DNA of 64,000 nt, taken from the NCBI RefSeq assembly GCF_030389965.1, contig NZ_CP128400.1:558001-622000 (forward strand). The letters are read 5' to 3'. This document shows positions 40,792-52,942 of this stretch, piece after piece. The stretch's first letter is position 1, and the number at the start of each line of letters is the position of its first letter. The notes under the pieces are model-generated. The model did no database searches, was not told the origin of the DNA, and saw nothing but the letters and a program-made list of their open reading frames with translations. The translations under genes and the position numbers were made by a program. The DNA comes from Candidatus Chlorohelix allophototropha. Its GTDB lineage: Bacteria > Chloroflexota > Chloroflexia > Chloroheliales > Chloroheliaceae.

Positions 40792-42555
40792 ATGTCAGAT
40801 CAGTTAAAATTAGGCTCTACCATATTAAATAAGTATCTTATCGACTCCATCATTGGTACTGGAGGATTTGGTGCAGTCTATAAGGCTTATGACCTAAAAC
40901 TCAAACGTTGGGCTGCTATAAAAACTCTACTCTATACGCAGAGTAGGCTGGATAATCGTTATGGAGTCGGGGCATTTGAAGAATTCCTGAGTCGTTTCCA
41001 ACGAGAAGCAACCGTCAGTAGCTACTTTACTCAAAATCCCAATATTATCACGGTTTATGGTCTGGAAGAAGACGAAGATGGGGATTATTACCTAATCCTT
41101 GAGTTTGTCGAGGGTGGTTCCCTAACCGATTATATCCGTAATAATAAAAAATTAACTATCGAAGAAACCTGCGCAGTTACACTCGATCTTTCTAGGGCGT
41201 TAGTTGATATTCACAATCATCCTGCCGATATTGTACACCGTGATTTAAAGCCCAGTAATATCCTTCTACGAAAAAATGGGCAGGCGCTTATAGCAGATTT
41301 TGGAATCGCGCAGGTCGGTCACGAAAGCCAACGCACTACGATTGGCGCACGACATCCGGGTTCATTACCCTATATGTCGCCCGAACAGGCTAAGGAATAT
41401 AGCTATCTTTCGCCAACCTCTGATCTTTATTCTCTAGGCTTGATTATTTATGAAATGCTGACCGGTATGCTGTATGCCAAATACAAACGCATGCCCCCAA
41501 GTTCGGTTAATCCTGAAGTTCCAGCATGGTTGGATGACTTAGTAACCCGCCTACTTAGTATTCTGCCAGAAGAGCGCTTGCAGAAAGCCGAAGAAATAAG
41601 CCACCTATTGCTGGAAAATATACCTGAATTAGAAAAATTCAGAATAATACCGCATAGTTCTGCGCCAGTAACCCCTCCGATAGAAGCAATACGGACTACC
41701 CCACTAGAAGGGGCAGTAAACAATGAACTTCCTACAATTGATATATCTGATAAAAAACTACCTGAAACTCTGACTGAGACAATTGCTTTATCAAAACAGC
41801 CTACCGCTTTACCGACTACCGACAAACGCAGACCAAACTTTATATGGGTAGGCGCAATTACAGCAGTTATTCTATTTCTAGGAATAGTCGGCGTTTTATT
41901 GGCGGGTAATGGTCAAAATAACAACAATTTAACTGCAACTATTGCGGCAGCAGTAGAATCAACTTCAAAAACCACTTCAACTGTTACGGATAATACAACT
42001 TTATCCATTTCAAATATTAATACTGTAGCCACAATGCCCTTGACCGATTCCGTTACAGCGACTGAAATCCCTAGCACACCCACTCCTGGACCTTCATTGA
42101 TTATATTTGGGGTTGGCACAACTCAACGAGGTGATGTTGAAACAGTCCAACCTGCCGATGCTACCGATACTTTTACGCTTGGAAGTGAAGCCTTTGGCTA
42201 TATAAATTTCGATGGCGGCAGACCGGATTTGGATAAAGTGGAACTGTCCATAATTTCGGATTCGGTTACACGAACTCCCATTACTATAACAATTACCAAA
42301 AAATCTGGATTCCAGATTTTGTCGCTTGGAAAATTGGAACTCGGTTCTTATCGAATCGAATTGCGCTACAATGGGCAGTTATTACCAAATCAACCTCAGT
42401 TTAAAGTGGTAGCGCCACCCACTACTGTAGCAATCCCAACTCAGCGCCCTGTAAACCAGCAACCGCTTCAAACTACTACAGCACCTACACCCCGTACAAC
42501 TGCGCCTATACCTGCGCCAACTACTAAAACTGTCTGCCCACCGGGGCAATGTTAA
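40792..42555 (+). CDS. Membrane Ser/Thr protein kinase with extracytoplasmic C-terminal domain
   Basis: A 587-aa Hanks-type kinase. Its N-terminal cytoplasmic catalytic domain (about 14-275) has GTGGFG (22-27), Lys44, IVHRDLKPSN with Asp151, and DFG at 169-171, so it is an RD kinase and should be active. A linker of about 70 residues leads to a single transmembrane helix (about 347-368). Outside are a Thr/Ser-rich stretch, a beta-rich region of about 100 residues, and a Pro/Thr-rich tail ending in CPPGQC. There are no PASTA repeats. No clear ribosome-binding site precedes the ATG. It probably senses an envelope signal; the downstream secreted propeller genes may belong to its regulon (inference). 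Confidence 0.9.
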   Translation: MSDQLKLGSTILNKYLIDSIIGTGGFGAVYKAYDLKLKRWAAIKTLLYTQSRLDNRYGVGAFEEFLSRFQREATVSSYFTQNPNIITVYGLEEDEDGDYYLILEFVEGGSLTDYIRNNKKLTIEETCAVTLDLSRALVDIHNHPADIVHRDLKPSNILLRKNGQALIADFGIAQVGHESQRTTIGARHPGSLPYMSPEQAKEYSYLSPTSDLYSLGLIIYEMLTGMLYAKYKRMPPSSVNPEVPAWLDDLVTRLLSILPEERLQKAEEISHLLLENIPELEKFRIIPHSSAPVTPPIEAIRTTPLEGAVNNELPTIDISDKKLPETLTETIALSKQPTALPTTDKRRPNFIWVGAITAVILFLGIVGVLLAGNGQNNNNLTATIAAAVESTSKTTSTVTDNTTLSISNINTVATMPLTDSVTATEIPSTPTPGPSLIIFGVGTTQRGDVETVQPADATDTFTLGSEAFGYINFDGGRPDLDKVELSIISDSVTRTPITITITKKSGFQILSLGKLELGSYRIELRYNGQLLPNQPQFKVVAPPTTVAIPTQRPVNQQPLQTTTAPTPRTTAPIPAPTTKTVCPPGQC

Positions 42556-42728
42556 CCCACCAACTCACTTTCTATTATTTAGTAAACACATTGTGAAATT
42601 CTGAATTTGTAAGGCGTATTTATGCAATTTTCCAATGCATTATTATTTTTAAATTAGTATAATTCTATCTGTCATTCTGCTTTAACAATTCTCAATAACT
42701 CCCCATCAATTTTGGAAGGGTAATGTAC

Positions 42729-45149
42729 ATGCGAAAACCTGCAAATATCTTAATAATACTTGGGATTTTATTCTCCATTTTTACTTCTATTGGAACGGCG
42801 AATGCTACCGAGGATAGCCGTTATTTTTCGCAAACCGATAAAACCGTAAGCGGGAAATTTCTTGAGTATTGGGACAAAAACGGCGGGTTACCCGTCTTTG
42901 GCTATCCAATTACCGAAGCTCAAATGGAAGTGAACCCGGAAGATGGGCAGGTTTATCTGACACAATGGTTTGAACGCCATCGCTTTGAATTACATCCAGA
43001 GAAAGCGGGTACACCCTTTGAAATTTTGACGGGATTACTTGGTAAGGATTTAAAGCGGGAAGGACTTTCCATTGACCCCGATTTTTTACCGGCGGCTGTA
43101 TTGTATAACACTGCACAGCCTAAAGAGCAGCAATGGTATTTTGACCAGACCAAACACAATCTCCGCTTTCGTTTTCTCGAATATTGGATGGCTAACGGTG
43201 GTTTAGAGCGCTTTGGCTATCCCATTAGTGAGGAATATAAAGAGGTTGACCCTGAGACCGGGAACGTATATATCGTGCAATGGTTCGAGCGGGCGCGTTT
43301 TGAATATCACCCTGAAAATCAGCGACCTTACGATGTTTTGCTTGGTTTGTTGGGAAAACAGATAAAAAATGCAAAACCGGGCGACCTAAATTACCTTTGG
43401 AAAATTGGCGCTGCTCAAAACGATTTGCGCGCGCCCGGACCTATTGCAGTCGGACCGGATGGTAGCGTTTATGTTGCGGATAGTGGTACACGTATTCAAA
43501 AATACGATGGGGATGGACACTTTTTAGCGCGTTGGGGTACGGCAGGTCTCTTGGATGGGCAATTCAATGGTATTAATTCCCTAGCTATAGATAGCAAAAA
43601 TAATGTATATGTGCTTGAAACCAACCGAGTGCAAAAATTTAGCAGTGATGGAACCTTCTTGCTTAAATTCGGTGCGGTAGGTAGCTATGACGCTGTATTG
43701 GATACGCCGACTCAAATGGTGATAGACCCACAAGGTAATATATTCATAATAGAACGATCAAAATACTTTATCAAGAAGTTTGACAGTAACGGTAAATATC
43801 TCAAGAAATTTGGCGGGCTAGGTACTCAGGATAGTAACTTCCAGCAGTACCCTGAAAGATTTAAGCTGGACTCTCAGGGGAATCTTTTTGTGCAGGCGGG
43901 AGACTCGCTTCAAAAGTTTGATAAGGAGGGGAATGCTCTGCAAAAATGGCAAGGTACGGCTTTTGAGTTGTCTTTTCCAACTTATACAGATAAAGTCCCT
44001 TTTTCACGGCTTACGCTCCTACAAATTACCCCTGAAGGGTATTTTTCCTTATATTATGGGATTAATAATATGGTTTATGTGGTGGATTCCAATTTAACTA
44101 TCTTAAAAAAATGGACTCCATTGGGTGGTATCAGTAACAGTGCGACTGATGGTGTAGGAAATCTATATCTTTCAGGTGAAATGGTTTATAAGTATGACAG
44201 CAGCGGGAATTTCATTCTCAAATGGGGCGCTCAAAATTCTCAATCAAGTCTAATAAATAATTGGTATAACATCAGCGCGGATTATACCGGGAATTTGTAC
44301 TATCCTGATAATTCCAGCATTGTTTGGTTGGACGAAAACTTAAGAGAAACCCAGCGAGTTGATTTTGCAAGCCTCACGAGTGGGCAGTTCAACCAGTCAA
44401 TTGGTAGGTTTAGTTTTGATAATAACGGGAACATTTATGTGCTACTGGGTAATACAGAGTCAACAAAATACTTGCAAGTTTTTGATAGCGCAGGACATTC
44501 CCTCAACAAATGGACTTTGGGTAGTTGTTGCGGTTGGGAGGATGGCAAGATAGACCAAATCTATGATTTCGAAGTGGGCGGCAACGGCAATTTCTATTTG
44601 ATAGATTACTACAATTATGATGCTAACCACAATTACAGCTCCACTATTAACCTACTTCGCGTTCAAGCCTTTGATAACCGTGGAAATTTCATGGCAAAAT
44701 GGCTAGTACCTTTTTCATATATCGGGTTAAATCTGACTACTGACCCGCAAGGGAATCTGTACATCCTTTCACACTCTGATGCAGATAAAGGTACTGATAG
44801 AGGTACTATCACCAAATATAATGGCAATGGCAATGTGCTGGGCAAATGGGATTTGGCAGCCGCAATACATGCGCCTTCTACCGCTTCACCAAGTTTTTCA
44901 TTAGTAAGTGACCACAAAAATTCTCTGTATTTGACTGCCAGAAGTTATGACCAGAGTTCTGGTATCGTAGAGGGAATAATAAAATTATCTTTTGACGGGC
45001 AATTGCAGGCTTTCTGGCAAGTCAATGATCCGAAGAATACCGACCAAGGTGACATTTTCGGGGTTCCCTATGGCAATATTGTTGCCACCTCTAACGGCGC
45101 TATTTTTGTTAAAACATATACGGCAATTCAAAAGTTCAGAATACGTTAA
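42729..45149 (+). CDS. Secreted NHL-repeat beta-propeller protein with two FGYP/QWFER modules
   Basis: An exported protein of about 806 aa. The signal peptide (to about residue 27) ends in an ANA-type cleavage site. Two copies of a roughly 75-residue module follow, each with a GG-x-x-x-FGYPI turn, a QWFER-x-RFE-x-HPE strand and a GLLGK close; they recall LGFP-type repeats in spacing, but I cannot confirm homology. The rest (about 215-806) is NHL-like blades such as IAVGPDGSVYVADSG and IQKYDGDGHFLARWG, a probable extracellular propeller. I prefer the ATG at 42729, 8 nt after GGAAGGG, over that at 42723. It has a tandem paralogue 29 bp downstream. Confidence 0.85.
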   Translation: MRKPANILIILGILFSIFTSIGTANATEDSRYFSQTDKTVSGKFLEYWDKNGGLPVFGYPITEAQMEVNPEDGQVYLTQWFERHRFELHPEKAGTPFEILTGLLGKDLKREGLSIDPDFLPAAVLYNTAQPKEQQWYFDQTKHNLRFRFLEYWMANGGLERFGYPISEEYKEVDPETGNVYIVQWFERARFEYHPENQRPYDVLLGLLGKQIKNAKPGDLNYLWKIGAAQNDLRAPGPIAVGPDGSVYVADSGTRIQKYDGDGHFLARWGTAGLLDGQFNGINSLAIDSKNNVYVLETNRVQKFSSDGTFLLKFGAVGSYDAVLDTPTQMVIDPQGNIFIIERSKYFIKKFDSNGKYLKKFGGLGTQDSNFQQYPERFKLDSQGNLFVQAGDSLQKFDKEGNALQKWQGTAFELSFPTYTDKVPFSRLTLLQITPEGYFSLYYGINNMVYVVDSNLTILKKWTPLGGISNSATDGVGNLYLSGEMVYKYDSSGNFILKWGAQNSQSSLINNWYNISADYTGNLYYPDNSSIVWLDENLRETQRVDFASLTSGQFNQSIGRFSFDNNGNIYVLLGNTESTKYLQVFDSAGHSLNKWTLGSCCGWEDGKIDQIYDFEVGGNGNFYLIDYYNYDANHNYSSTINLLRVQAFDNRGNFMAKWLVPFSYIGLNLTTDPQGNLYILSHSDADKGTDRGTITKYNGNGNVLGKWDLAAAIHAPSTASPSFSLVSDHKNSLYLTARSYDQSSGIVEGIIKLSFDGQLQAFWQVNDPKNTDQGDIFGVPYGNIVATSNGAIFVKTYTAIQKFRIR

Positions 45150-45178
45150 CCAAACTATTAGCAGGCAGAGGAAAGTCA

Positions 45179-47608
45179 ATGAACCGCATTAAATTTGCAG
45201 GAGTGTTCTTTAGCGTACTACTGATGTTGGGTTTATTTGTGTCGGCTTTAACCCCCGCCTTGGCTGACGATAGCGAATATTTTGAGGCAACCGGAAAAAC
45301 TGTAAGCGGCAAGTTTCTGCAATATTGGCATTCAAACGGTGGGTTATCGGTTTTTGGCTATCCCATTACAGAAGCCCAAATGGAAGTGAATCCCGAAGAT
45401 GGACAGGTTTATCTGACGCAATGGTTTGAACGACATCGCTTCGAATTGCATCCAGAAAAAGCCGGCACTCCCTTTGAGATACTCACCGGGCTTTTGGGAA
45501 AAGACTTGCGGCGCGAGGCTTTAGAGGTTGACCCCGATTTTAAACGAGCCGATGTTCTATATAACGTGCTTCAGCCTAAAGAGCAGCAATGGTATTTTGA
45601 GCAAACCGGGCATAATCTGCGTTTCCGTTTTCTGGAATACTGGATGGCTAACGGCGGTCTGGAGCGTTTTGGATATCCCATCAGTGAGGAACATCGCGAG
45701 GTTGACCCTGAAACAGGTAAAAGCTACGTGATGCAGTGGTTTGAACGGGCGCGTTTTGAATACCACCCTGAAAACCAGCGTCCCTATGATGTTCTGCTCG
45801 GCTTGCTTGGCAAACAAATCAAGAATCCGGTTCAAAACAAGTTGGAATTTATGTGGAAGATCGGCGCATCTGCCAATAATTTTAGAAGGCCGGATGCGTT
45901 GGCAATTGATAAAAGCGACAATGTTTATGTGGTAGATATTACTGGCAAGCGGGTATTCAAATACGGCAGTAATGGACAGTTTCAAGCAAGGTGGTCGGTG
46001 GACGGTCCTTCAGCGCTGGCAATAGACAGTCGCGATAATTTATTCGTAGCTAGACGTTCGGCAGCGCAAATAGCCAAATATGACTCGAATGGTAGTTTAC
46101 TTTACCAAAAATATTTATATGCGATTAATAATAGTAACTATAGAAGTAATATCCAACTCGGTGTTATTGCAATAGATCCGTATGACAACCTGTTTGTTGC
46201 CGATCCCGATACTGCGCAGGTTCATAAGTTTGATGGAGAAGGTAATTTTCTTCTTACGATTGGTGGAGAAGGGGCTGGAGATGGGCAGTTCGGTTTTTCC
46301 AAATACGGCTATAATTTTATCAATGGTTTGGGTTGTGATGCTCAAGGAAATTTATATGTGCTTGACCCGGTTAACAGCAGAATTCAGATTTTCGATAATA
46401 ACGGGAATTTTCTAAGAAAAATCACTAAAGTTTCCGGTATCGATCTTGGAAGAGCAGACTCACTTGCGGTAGATGAACAAGGTCAGCTTTATCTAACTAC
46501 TTACATCGTCTTAAATTCTACCAATTTCAACTATTCCCTGTTGAAACTGGATAGCAACGGCACTGTGCTGTTAACGGTGCAATTGAATAATCAAAACAAC
46601 AACAGTTCGGTTATTACCGTTCGGAATGGGAATTTATATATAGGTAGTTACAAAACCAAATTGGTATCAAAATATTCTACCGATGGGCAACTACTACTTT
46701 CATGGGGAAACAGCACAGACCCCAATACCCGTTTTGATTTTATTAATCATTTATGGCTTGACCGTCAGGACAATTTATACATTATTGATAATCAAACTAT
46801 GCGGAAGTTCGACAATAAAGGTCATTTCTTGCAGGCGTGGAATCCTCCTAGTCAAACTTGGGCAGTTTATTTTGACGGTAATGACAAGTTCTATTATAGC
46901 GAGGAACTTCGAGATACCGATACCCAGCCATATGAACGAGTTACGGTACTTAATACTACGGGGGGTCAAATCTCTCAGTTCTCGATAAAAAACCAGCCTT
47001 GTAAAAGCTATTCTTATGGTGGGCAACGTTTCTCCGGTGTAGATCGTCAGGGAGATCTATATTTCCTTTATTCCTACGACCCGGGTTCGAGTTATCCGGG
47101 GCAGCAAAAGGATTGTATTCAGAAATTTGACTCAACCGGCAAGTTGCTGGCAGAGTGGGGCAGCTACGGCAGTGGTGATGGGCAATTCAAATTTAAAATT
47201 ATTAACCCTGATGGTACAGGTTCGGGTTATATACCGCAAATTGCTTTGGATGAACAGGGCAATTGCTATGTTACTGACTTGGGTAATTACCGAATCCAGA
47301 AATTTGATAGCACAGGTAAATTTCTGGCGCAATGGTCCTTATTCATACCACCGGATTATAAACGTGAAGATATGACTCCAAACAATTTGATCGTTGATAA
47401 TAAAAGTCAGGTGTATGTAGAAGTTGCAGGCTATTTACAAAAATATGACAGCAACGGTAACCTAATTATTAACATCAAAACAACAGATGATTATTCCATA
47501 GAATCGGCAGATGGAAGTTTTTTCTCTCGAAGTATAGCTATAGATACCGCCGGGCATTTGTTCGTAGGCGATTATAGTGAACGTGTTCAAAAGCTAGTTT
47601 TGAGGTAA
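45179..47608 (+). CDS. Secreted NHL-repeat beta-propeller protein, tandem paralogue
   Basis: An 809-aa exported paralogue of the preceding gene, with the same order: signal peptide (cleavage probably after ALA near 29), two FGYP/QWFER modules (about 35-210), then NHL blades. The modules are almost identical to those of the upstream protein, while the propeller is only patchily similar, with different blade sequences. AGAGGAAAG precedes the ATG, and the 29-bp gap implies co-transcription. The blades show repeated YDSNG/FDSTG and YVxD motifs. Likely role is surface binding or adhesion with variable specificity; no catalytic residues are seen. Confidence 0.85.
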   Translation: MNRIKFAGVFFSVLLMLGLFVSALTPALADDSEYFEATGKTVSGKFLQYWHSNGGLSVFGYPITEAQMEVNPEDGQVYLTQWFERHRFELHPEKAGTPFEILTGLLGKDLRREALEVDPDFKRADVLYNVLQPKEQQWYFEQTGHNLRFRFLEYWMANGGLERFGYPISEEHREVDPETGKSYVMQWFERARFEYHPENQRPYDVLLGLLGKQIKNPVQNKLEFMWKIGASANNFRRPDALAIDKSDNVYVVDITGKRVFKYGSNGQFQARWSVDGPSALAIDSRDNLFVARRSAAQIAKYDSNGSLLYQKYLYAINNSNYRSNIQLGVIAIDPYDNLFVADPDTAQVHKFDGEGNFLLTIGGEGAGDGQFGFSKYGYNFINGLGCDAQGNLYVLDPVNSRIQIFDNNGNFLRKITKVSGIDLGRADSLAVDEQGQLYLTTYIVLNSTNFNYSLLKLDSNGTVLLTVQLNNQNNNSSVITVRNGNLYIGSYKTKLVSKYSTDGQLLLSWGNSTDPNTRFDFINHLWLDRQDNLYIIDNQTMRKFDNKGHFLQAWNPPSQTWAVYFDGNDKFYYSEELRDTDTQPYERVTVLNTTGGQISQFSIKNQPCKSYSYGGQRFSGVDRQGDLYFLYSYDPGSSYPGQQKDCIQKFDSTGKLLAEWGSYGSGDGQFKFKIINPDGTGSGYIPQIALDEQGNCYVTDLGNYRIQKFDSTGKFLAQWSLFIPPDYKREDMTPNNLIVDNKSQVYVEVAGYLQKYDSNGNLIINIKTTDDYSIESADGSFFSRSIAIDTAGHLFVGDYSERVQKLVLR

Positions 47609-51565: not shown

Positions 51566-52942
51566 GTGAAGAGAAAGCCGAAAAATATTGTAGTTGGGGT
51601 CAGCCTTGCTATTATATTGCTTTTCTCTGCAACCCTATTACCTGTAACCGCCGCAAGCCCTGAAAACGGATTTTCCTACCTCGCAGAAGTTGCAGCAGCC
51701 GTTAATGTTCGAAACCCTCGTCAATTCCAATATTATAATCAAACGGGGCATAGTGTAAGCGGACCGCTATTGAGATATTACCGCAGTACCGGTGGAATTA
51801 CCCGTCATGGCTATCCTATTACTGAACTCCTTTTGCGCGATGGTCATTACGTCCAATATTTTGAGCGAAGTGTGCTAGAGTTTTACCCAGATTACAGCGG
51901 TACTCCCCAAGAAGTTGCCCCAGTATCTTTATTTGGAGCCGATAATATCGGTGATAAAGCTACGGTTCAAGCTTTTGAAAGCACAGCTGATCGCTGGTAT
52001 TTCCCAGAAACTTCCCATAGTGTGTCGGGAGAATTCCTGTCATTCTGGCGGAATAATGGAGAGCGTCAATCTCTTGGTCTGCCACTGAGCGAACCCTTCG
52101 AAGAAACTCAACCTGACGATTCTAAATTGCTGGTACAATATTTTGAGTATGCCAAGCTCGAATATCACGCCGACTCGGAAGGGATTCAAATTGCCCATTC
52201 CGGGTTAAAGAGAGCAGAGTCTGAGCTTGACTCACAGCTTTTTGCTACTGCTCCTTTGGCACGTCTGACTGAACAGCGTCAGGTAAGAATACCCTCGCTG
52301 ATGTTCCATTATGTTAGAACGGTAGATCGAAAGAAAGATTTGCTTGGGTATCGCCTTTCGGTAACTCCCGAAACTTTTGGTAAATATCTGGACTGGCTCA
52401 AGGAGAATGGCTACCATACTGTAACGCTCGCGCAAGTTATGGATGCGCTTAAATATGGAGTGCAACTGCCTGAAAAAGCGATTAACCTACGTTTCGATGA
52501 CGGACATGCTGATATGTGGACTGCCTACCTCGCTTTAAAAGAGCGCGGCATGACTGCTACCTTTTATGTAATCACCCAACGGCTTGAGTTGTTGCCGGAA
52601 CAATGGCGACAAATTGACCAAGATGGTTTTGAGGTTGCACCGCATACCCGTACTCACCCAGATTTGCGGACAGTGCGCGATCTAAACGCGGAAATAAGCG
52701 GTAGCAAACAAGACCTCGAAGAGATGTTGGGGCATCCAACCCGCACTTTTGCTTACCCCTATGGCAAATACAGCGATGCTATTATTAAAGCCACTACCGA
52801 TAGCGGGATTGAAATGGCGGTTTCCACCGATGGCGGCTATAACTTCCTCTTGAATAATATGTACAAGCAACCCACGATTAGCGTAACCGGAGACGATACT
52901 ATGCAGGACTTTATCAATAAAGTAAAAGCCGGAACCCGTTGA
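51566..52942 (+). CDS. Secreted polysaccharide deacetylase (CE4/NodB) with two FGYP-type modules
   Basis: A 458-aa exported enzyme. The signal peptide is about 1-29. Two divergent copies of the module seen in the propeller proteins follow: GHSVSG...GGITRHGYPITE...VQYFER and SHSVSGEFLSFWRNNG...LGLPLSE...VQYFEYAKLEYH. A NodB-type domain (about 235-455) has LRFDDGH (first Asp pair), HTRTHPDL (metal His pair) and YPYGKYS. The canonical TFDDG Thr is Arg here. Expected activity is N-deacetylation of peptidoglycan or another amino-sugar polymer. GTG at 51566 is used as start; no good Shine-Dalgarno is visible. The modules probably hold the enzyme at the cell wall (inference). Confidence 0.86.
   Translation: MKRKPKNIVVGVSLAIILLFSATLLPVTAASPENGFSYLAEVAAAVNVRNPRQFQYYNQTGHSVSGPLLRYYRSTGGITRHGYPITELLLRDGHYVQYFERSVLEFYPDYSGTPQEVAPVSLFGADNIGDKATVQAFESTADRWYFPETSHSVSGEFLSFWRNNGERQSLGLPLSEPFEETQPDDSKLLVQYFEYAKLEYHADSEGIQIAHSGLKRAESELDSQLFATAPLARLTEQRQVRIPSLMFHYVRTVDRKKDLLGYRLSVTPETFGKYLDWLKENGYHTVTLAQVMDALKYGVQLPEKAINLRFDDGHADMWTAYLALKERGMTATFYVITQRLELLPEQWRQIDQDGFEVAPHTRTHPDLRTVRDLNAEISGSKQDLEEMLGHPTRTFAYPYGKYSDAIIKATTDSGIEMAVSTDGGYNFLLNNMYKQPTISVTGDDTMQDFINKVKAGTR

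Follow-up and report, generated by a model that had tools for sequence, protein, structure and literature searches.

LGFP-like FGYP modules and NHL propellers of probably unequal age in a family of predicted exported proteins of Candidatus Chlorohelix allophototropha

The C-terminal domain of MytA, mycoloyltransferase A of Corynebacterium glutamicum, consists of LGFP repeats and is reported, in the accessible part of PMC11299179 (which cites Dietrich 2020), to bind peptidoglycan-arabinogalactan. A second point of reference is the work of Pereira and Lupas (PMC9218822), the available portion of which describes the ongoing amplification of propellers from single blades. Here, we describe two neighboring genes, A and B, whose products carry modules that recall the first system and propellers that recall the second. 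They lie in the window, by which we mean the whole 64,000-nucleotide stretch of Candidatus Chlorohelix allophototropha DNA that was analyzed (contig NZ_CP128400.1, positions 558,001 to 622,000). The assembly holds 6.09 Mb in five contigs, and the window falls on C2 (2,453,413 bases; C1 has 2,961,161 and C3 375,274); the accessible text of PMC10972752 gives a chromosome 1 of 2.96 Mb, a chromosome 2 of 2.45 Mb, and a chromid of 375 kb for L227-S17. Our literature searches found no account of LGFP in Chloroflexota, and the combination of LGFP with Chloroflexi led only to phage endolysins in the texts accessible to us. Searches for FGYP with Chloroflexi gave only unrelated work, as far as the available portions of those sources go, and Chlorohelix with propeller gave none.

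A (42723-45149, 808 aa) and B (45179-47608, 809 aa) are tandem open reading frames on the plus strand with a gap of 29 bases between them. Position 42729 is the second in-frame ATG of A, which opens at 42723. Both encode predicted exported proteins with a signal-peptide region, two FGYP modules (together the head), and an NHL propeller tail (Table 1). Directly 5′ of A and in the same direction is a Ser/Thr protein kinase gene (40792-42555, plus strand) in which a kinase domain was found; its sequence reads as though a transmembrane segment and an outer tail were present, and a functional link to the A/B pair is possible.

Table 1. Parts of A and B and a third family member, in window coordinates
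Feature	Position	Strand	Evidence
Protein A, signal-peptide region, residues 1-29	42723..42809	+	ORF; 21% identity to B, dN 1.1
Protein A, FGYP (LGFP-like) module 1, residues 34-109	42822..43049	+	Own HMM, 118 bits
Protein A, FGYP module 2, residues 139-213	43137..43361	+	Own HMM, 122 bits
Protein A, NHL propeller tail, ~590 aa (~12 blade lengths), periodicity lost	43386..45146	+	Pfam NHL 36 bits (cut-off 20); autocorrelation only 0.09; 11 blade-like matches, 6 long enough for comparison
Protein B, signal-peptide region, residues 1-29	45179..45265	+	ORF; comparison with A
Protein B, FGYP module 1, residues 34-109	45278..45505	+	Own HMM, 118 bits; AlphaFold2 module-pair model, pLDDT 93
Protein B, FGYP module 2, residues 139-213	45593..45817	+	Own HMM, 122 bits; AlphaFold2 module-pair model, pLDDT 93
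Protein B, NHL propeller tail, ~590 aa (~12 blade lengths)	45842..47605	+	Pfam NHL 55.6 bits; 11 blade-like matches; Foldseek to solved NHL domains, e.g. 1q7f_B TM 0.70, 7qrv_D TM 0.75 (by target length)
Third family member: two more distant FGYP modules, then polysaccharide deacetylase domain	51566..52942	+	Module HMM; PF01522 E 6.9e-25

As modeled, the FGYP module is a divergent LGFP-like fold. The double-module model, built on an alignment (A2) of 48 of 80 loci plus A and B, is confident (pTM 0.86, with the pLDDT given in Table 1). In a full-length model of B made from four sequences, residues 1-235 fall below pLDDT 50 and the tail lies mostly at 60-90, and the head was modeled alone. The best solved match to the module is 6swz, the C-terminal domain of Corynebacterium glutamicum MytA (Foldseek E 3.8e-3, prob 0.91), which superposes on module 1 over 59 residues with an rmsd of 1.9 and a Z score of 7.2; the next unrelated chain reaches Z 3.1, and a Z below 8 is modest when taken alone. 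At the level of sequence, the link is faint. Neither A nor B matches Pfam LGFP (PF08310, gathering cut-off 22 bits) or any other Pfam module family, a search of the whole genome for LGFP gave nothing above cut-off, the PDB searched by sequence with module profiles gave nothing useful, and NCBIfam returned chance-level matches only on the module pairs. With a limit of E ≤ 10, weak LGFP signal was seen in 6 of 13 module pairs, the best at 8.3e-6, and with a limit of E ≤ 0.01 in 7 of 50, the best at 1.4e-7; one paralogue (L051) exceeds the PF08310 cut-off with a whole-protein score of 25.8 bits. The modules, of about 76 residues, recur at a spacing of about 105 residues rather than as the ∼54-residue tandem repeat of LGFP.

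The initial annotation had proposed looking for further copies with other propellers in this genome and its relatives, and such copies are plentiful, with varied tails. A search of the genome with the head of A gave 59 matches; an iterated single-module HMM, run on the stretches around these matches and on three stretches with NHL matches, then found 93 modules in 49 open reading frames. The modules are N-terminal in 21 of these, C-terminal in 23, in the middle in three, and alone in two. Because an insertion sequence has divided one gene into two of these 49 reading frames, the family counts about 48 genes. The split gene (L032:2172-5726, chromid ∼351.7-355.2 kb) is broken inside module 2 by a transposable element, which we take to be IS3-like, with two open reading frames on the minus strand (3926-2747) and rve, HTH_21, and HTH_Tnp_1 domains. 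The 375 kb chromid holds 17 of the 49 against 3.0 expected (P 2.6e-9), a set that was gathered with the head of A as query and may therefore favor its near relatives. A Pfam scan covered 42 of the 49, namely A, B, and 40 other members; at E ≤ 0.001, 31 of the 40 carry a partner domain and nine have no match. The partners include polysaccharide deacetylase (the third member in Table 1), YkuD, M23 (twice), amidase_2 (twice), sortase, C39, GH18, GH5/42, GH17, subtilase (twice), CAP, PGA_cap, PP2C, BNR/sortilin-like, NHL, and others. The PP2C case, a 1169-aa protein (L062:2570-6079) with an N-terminal phosphatase domain and C-terminal FGYP modules, is unusual in that an enzyme generally found in the cytoplasm is joined to a module of the wall type. 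Beyond this genome, the module pair occurs in 24 of 31 genomes (the relatives, with this genome included), and the module occurs in 105 of 301 sampled genomes of Chloroflexota, where at most 11 candidates were scored per genome and copy numbers are lower bounds. The role of anchor that the initial annotation had assigned to the modules fits both the modeled LGFP-like fold and the partner domains, which together suggest attachment to the wall; the propeller, in turn, may bind a ligand.

Both tails exceed the cut-off of Pfam NHL (PF01436), and the model of the B tail matches solved NHL domains over ∼270-310 columns, as would be expected of a propeller fold. Tail lengths in the family center on ∼560-600 aa, or about 12 blades of 47 residues, and on ∼280-310 aa, which suggests two six-bladed rings in each ∼12-blade tail. 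In several paralogues, a period of 47 residues is strongly marked (autocorrelation 0.41-0.56), and blades of a single protein can be as much as 100% identical; A and B have no such period (0.09). When blades with fewer than 30 filled columns are excluded, the median identity between blades of the same protein is 0.36 in A (six blades) and 0.33 in B (eight blades), as against 0.63-0.67 in the most repetitive members. Medians above 60% are found in C3_339, C3_342, C3_344, C3_356, C2_205, and the pair C134a/b of the genome G002, and in neither A nor B. An IS66 transposase gene lies beside the cluster (L032:770-2218 and L032:6794-8326), and the C-terminal end of C3_356 resembles the antisense end of the element; from sequence, the C3_356 propeller looks to have been shortened by an IS66-type insertion.

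The reading that we prefer, with a probability of about two in three, is that constant wall-anchor heads spread by recombination and that propeller tails arise as blades are amplified and turned over. The young members on the chromid support recombination between heads: genes there that differ in their tails, or whose blades are not equivalent, have heads with 85-92% DNA identity. Four clustered chromid genes (at 5.0-10.6 kb, in the stretch ∼4.8-11.6 kb; L033:2833-9576) have heads that are 85-91% identical in DNA among the five listed of their six pairs, and their short, different tails share 17-34% protein identity and have no Pfam match. The clearest single case is C2_205 on chromosome 2, a chimera that begins like C3_333 through its first module (89% DNA identity over 369 bases) and, past a junction near nucleotides 330-360, continues like C3_356 with the end of module 2 and the propeller, so that one hybrid module is left. 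This is direct evidence of recombination inside a module between genes that are now on different replicons.

It is conceivable that whole genes duplicate in the normal way and that only the propellers rearrange, by unequal recombination of near-identical blades, with no exchange of heads. The blades themselves make this worth considering: their median identity within repetitive members is 53-67%, codon mismatch in the closest blade pair goes down to 0.07, and continuous amplification from single blades is what the accessible text of PMC9218822 describes. In the young pairs, blades at the same position are no more alike than other blades, either by the protein medians (0.67 vs 0.67 for C3_342/344 and 0.69 vs 0.65 for C134a/b) or by codon mismatch (0.521 vs 0.469 and 0.368 vs 0.377, respectively), so these tails are not related blade by blade despite their young heads. 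The signal peptides of C134a and C134b are moreover identical, and whole-gene duplication with blade turnover thus fits this pair as well as conversion does. C3_342 and C3_344, however, have a synonymously young head between old flanks: codons of the signal peptide are near random (ratio 0.93, n = 19), and no relationship is apparent in the DNA upstream (0.58). The C2_205 chimera, joined inside a module, and the presence of the same heads on genes with nonpropeller tails also speak against rearrangement of propellers alone, and we consider it unlikely.

The initial annotation had proposed something different for A and B, namely, an old duplication with strong purifying selection on the anchor and rapid change of the propeller. 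Its description of the pair holds up well. A and B match each other over the whole protein with E 1e-165, far above chance; their heads (residues 30-216) are 86% identical in protein, including the stretch FELHPEKAGTPFEILTGLLG, which is the same in both, and 77% identical in DNA, with 45% of third positions different and an NG86 pS of 0.71. The propellers share only ∼31% protein identity, with indels. A maximum-likelihood (ML) codon fit of the heads gives a dS of 2.17, near saturation, and an omega of 0.04, and forcing omega to 0.1 loses 5.4 lnL units; both the age of the pair and the strong purifying selection on its head are thereby supported. Recent gene conversion of the A/B head, which we had considered, was dropped because the head is near saturation. 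The A/B propeller fit, in which dS is unbounded (saturated) and omega 0.2 is worse by 10.3 lnL units, proves little alone because misaligned residues raise dS and lower omega, and at 30% identity alignment noise distorts it. Codon mismatch at identical residues is 69/152 in the head and 93/159 in the propeller (p 0.023), where the noisy propeller alignment would by itself drive mismatch to random; the head value is below the between-genus level (p 0.004 and 0.0003).

Other pairs are better resolved. Head pairs were compared when both modules scored above 90 bits (trees) or when two modules were found and the first scored above 90 bits (rotation and codon tests); split or single-module genes (C3_353, C2_205), C1_1802, and one G003 gene (g3_C89) fall outside the head-pair counts. 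For C3_342/344, the ML fit gives a head dS of 0.24 with omega 0.127 and a propeller dS of 2.21 with omega 0.128, a 9.2-fold ratio of dS. For C3_339/342, the head has dS 0.58 and omega 0.095 and the propeller dS 2.32 and omega 0.118 (4.0-fold), and for C134a/b of G002, the head has dS 0.22 and omega 0.241 and the propeller dS 0.95 and omega 0.311 (4.3-fold). A six-gene codon model likewise gives omega 0.069 and tree length 5.3 for the head and omega 0.096 and tree length 17.4 for the propeller. With omega similar and dS 4- to 9-fold apart in the three pairs, the heads are of younger ancestry than the propellers. Codon mismatch at identical residues points the same way, at 27/169 in the head vs 163/322 in the propeller for C3_344/C3_342 (p 1.2e-14) and at 19/161 vs 125/341 for C134a/b (p 2e-9). 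Constraint per synonymous change is about equal in the two halves, and what differs is the time of divergence; head and propeller contrast because they are unequal in age and because blades turn over, and not because the propeller has a higher dN/dS. The initial annotation had named similar dN/dS across both regions as the outcome that would count against it, and this is the outcome we obtained; its rapid propeller change through weaker constraint is not borne out.

A single old whole-gene duplication, after which the anchor was under strong purifying selection and the propeller, under relaxed or positive selection, diverged by point changes in place, nevertheless has the A/B pair itself on its side. 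Besides the low omega of their heads, A and B are sisters in the head tree (support 99/96), and a sister grouping of their propellers is not rejected (p-AU 0.356 and 0.42). When the propellers are rotated against each other, the in-register alignment scores 340 vs 147-282, the best of 12 rotations, which favors a shared ancestral propeller, and we regard such an ancestor as possible. A similar in-register excess is seen for A and for B against C3_342 and is not seen for B against g2_C134a. The five comparable A/B blade pairs give 0.38 at the same position vs 0.34 elsewhere. The best propeller partners in the genome differ (C3:342868 for A and C1:1146872 for B) and a free tree splits the two; we dropped this as proof of different sister genes, as the branches are long and the A+B grouping is not rejected. 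In four genomes of the same family, no clear orthologues of either tail were found. Against contrasting selection stand the similar omega values just given, the young pairs that show no positional homology of blades, and the neighboring genes that bear the same head with unrelated tails, and we judge it unlikely as well. That the head DNA is constrained as nucleotides, through codon choice or RNA structure, such that low dS would not mean recent ancestry, would explain why head codon mismatch is below that of the propeller in 10/10 within-genome pairs tested, but between genera head codons are about as random as those of the tail (0.563 vs 0.574 against G002; 0.594 vs 0.639 against G001/G003), so that head codons are not fixed, and mismatch rises to 0.6 in many head pairs of the same genome, which leaves very little room for this idea.

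Under the preferred reading, heads spread by recombination and tails amplified from blades, A and B would each be held to the cell wall by two LGFP-like FGYP modules, and their ∼12-blade NHL propellers would bind something outside the cell. A and B would be an old tandem pair in a lineage-expanded family. Purifying selection would keep the heads of this family alike, joined in the younger members by recombination among paralogues, either gene conversion or crossover through module DNA. By kinship, A and B probably went through the same process. Amplification and turnover of blades would build the propellers, which would later erode, and an entire tail could be exchanged at the module. One may also imagine the chromid as a workshop for surface-protein variation, where clustered and interchangeable LGFP-like heads, helped by insertion sequences, feed heads and tails to chromosomal loci via recombination in module DNA. 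This is a long shot; if true, it would be akin to the silent cassettes of antigenic variation, but in a free-living phototroph. Our results highlight a wall-binding-like module that standard libraries fail to detect in A and B and that ranks with the most heavily reused exported parts of the genome; once recognized, it would allow dozens of unannotated proteins of Chloroflexota to be interpreted as wall-bound. They also show that a conserved head beside a diverged tail can pass for contrasting selection when the two halves differ in age. In the young chromid genes, propeller birth, erosion, and head exchange can be watched within one genome.

Set beside known systems, the FGYP modules share with the LGFP repeat (PF08310, MytA) the fold of the single module, a helix and a small β sheet, the arrangement in tandem on exported proteins with wall-active enzymes, and a weak link in sequence. 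They differ in their wider spacing, in having two copies instead of five, in the motif FGYP instead of LGFP, in their host phylum, and in that A and B miss the LGFP model. The ScyF-type NHL proteins (NCBIfam NF035926) resemble A and B through their NHL propeller, with 91 and 130 bits; these scores are far under the cut-off of 350 bits, and the N-terminal half is unlike. NHL β-propellers in general (PF01436) include A and B by score and by the modeled fold of the B tail, but here ∼12 blade lengths stand in one chain on wall-anchor-like modules, and the blades of A and B are strongly eroded. The highly repetitive propellers treated in PMC9218822, to the extent that its accessible text allows comparison, are matched by the paralogues in which blades recur every 47 residues with median identities of up to 0.67, and also in that blades are homologous and whole propellers are not matched by position. 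The family described here differs from them in that the head itself is common to the genes and is synonymously younger than the propeller that it carries.
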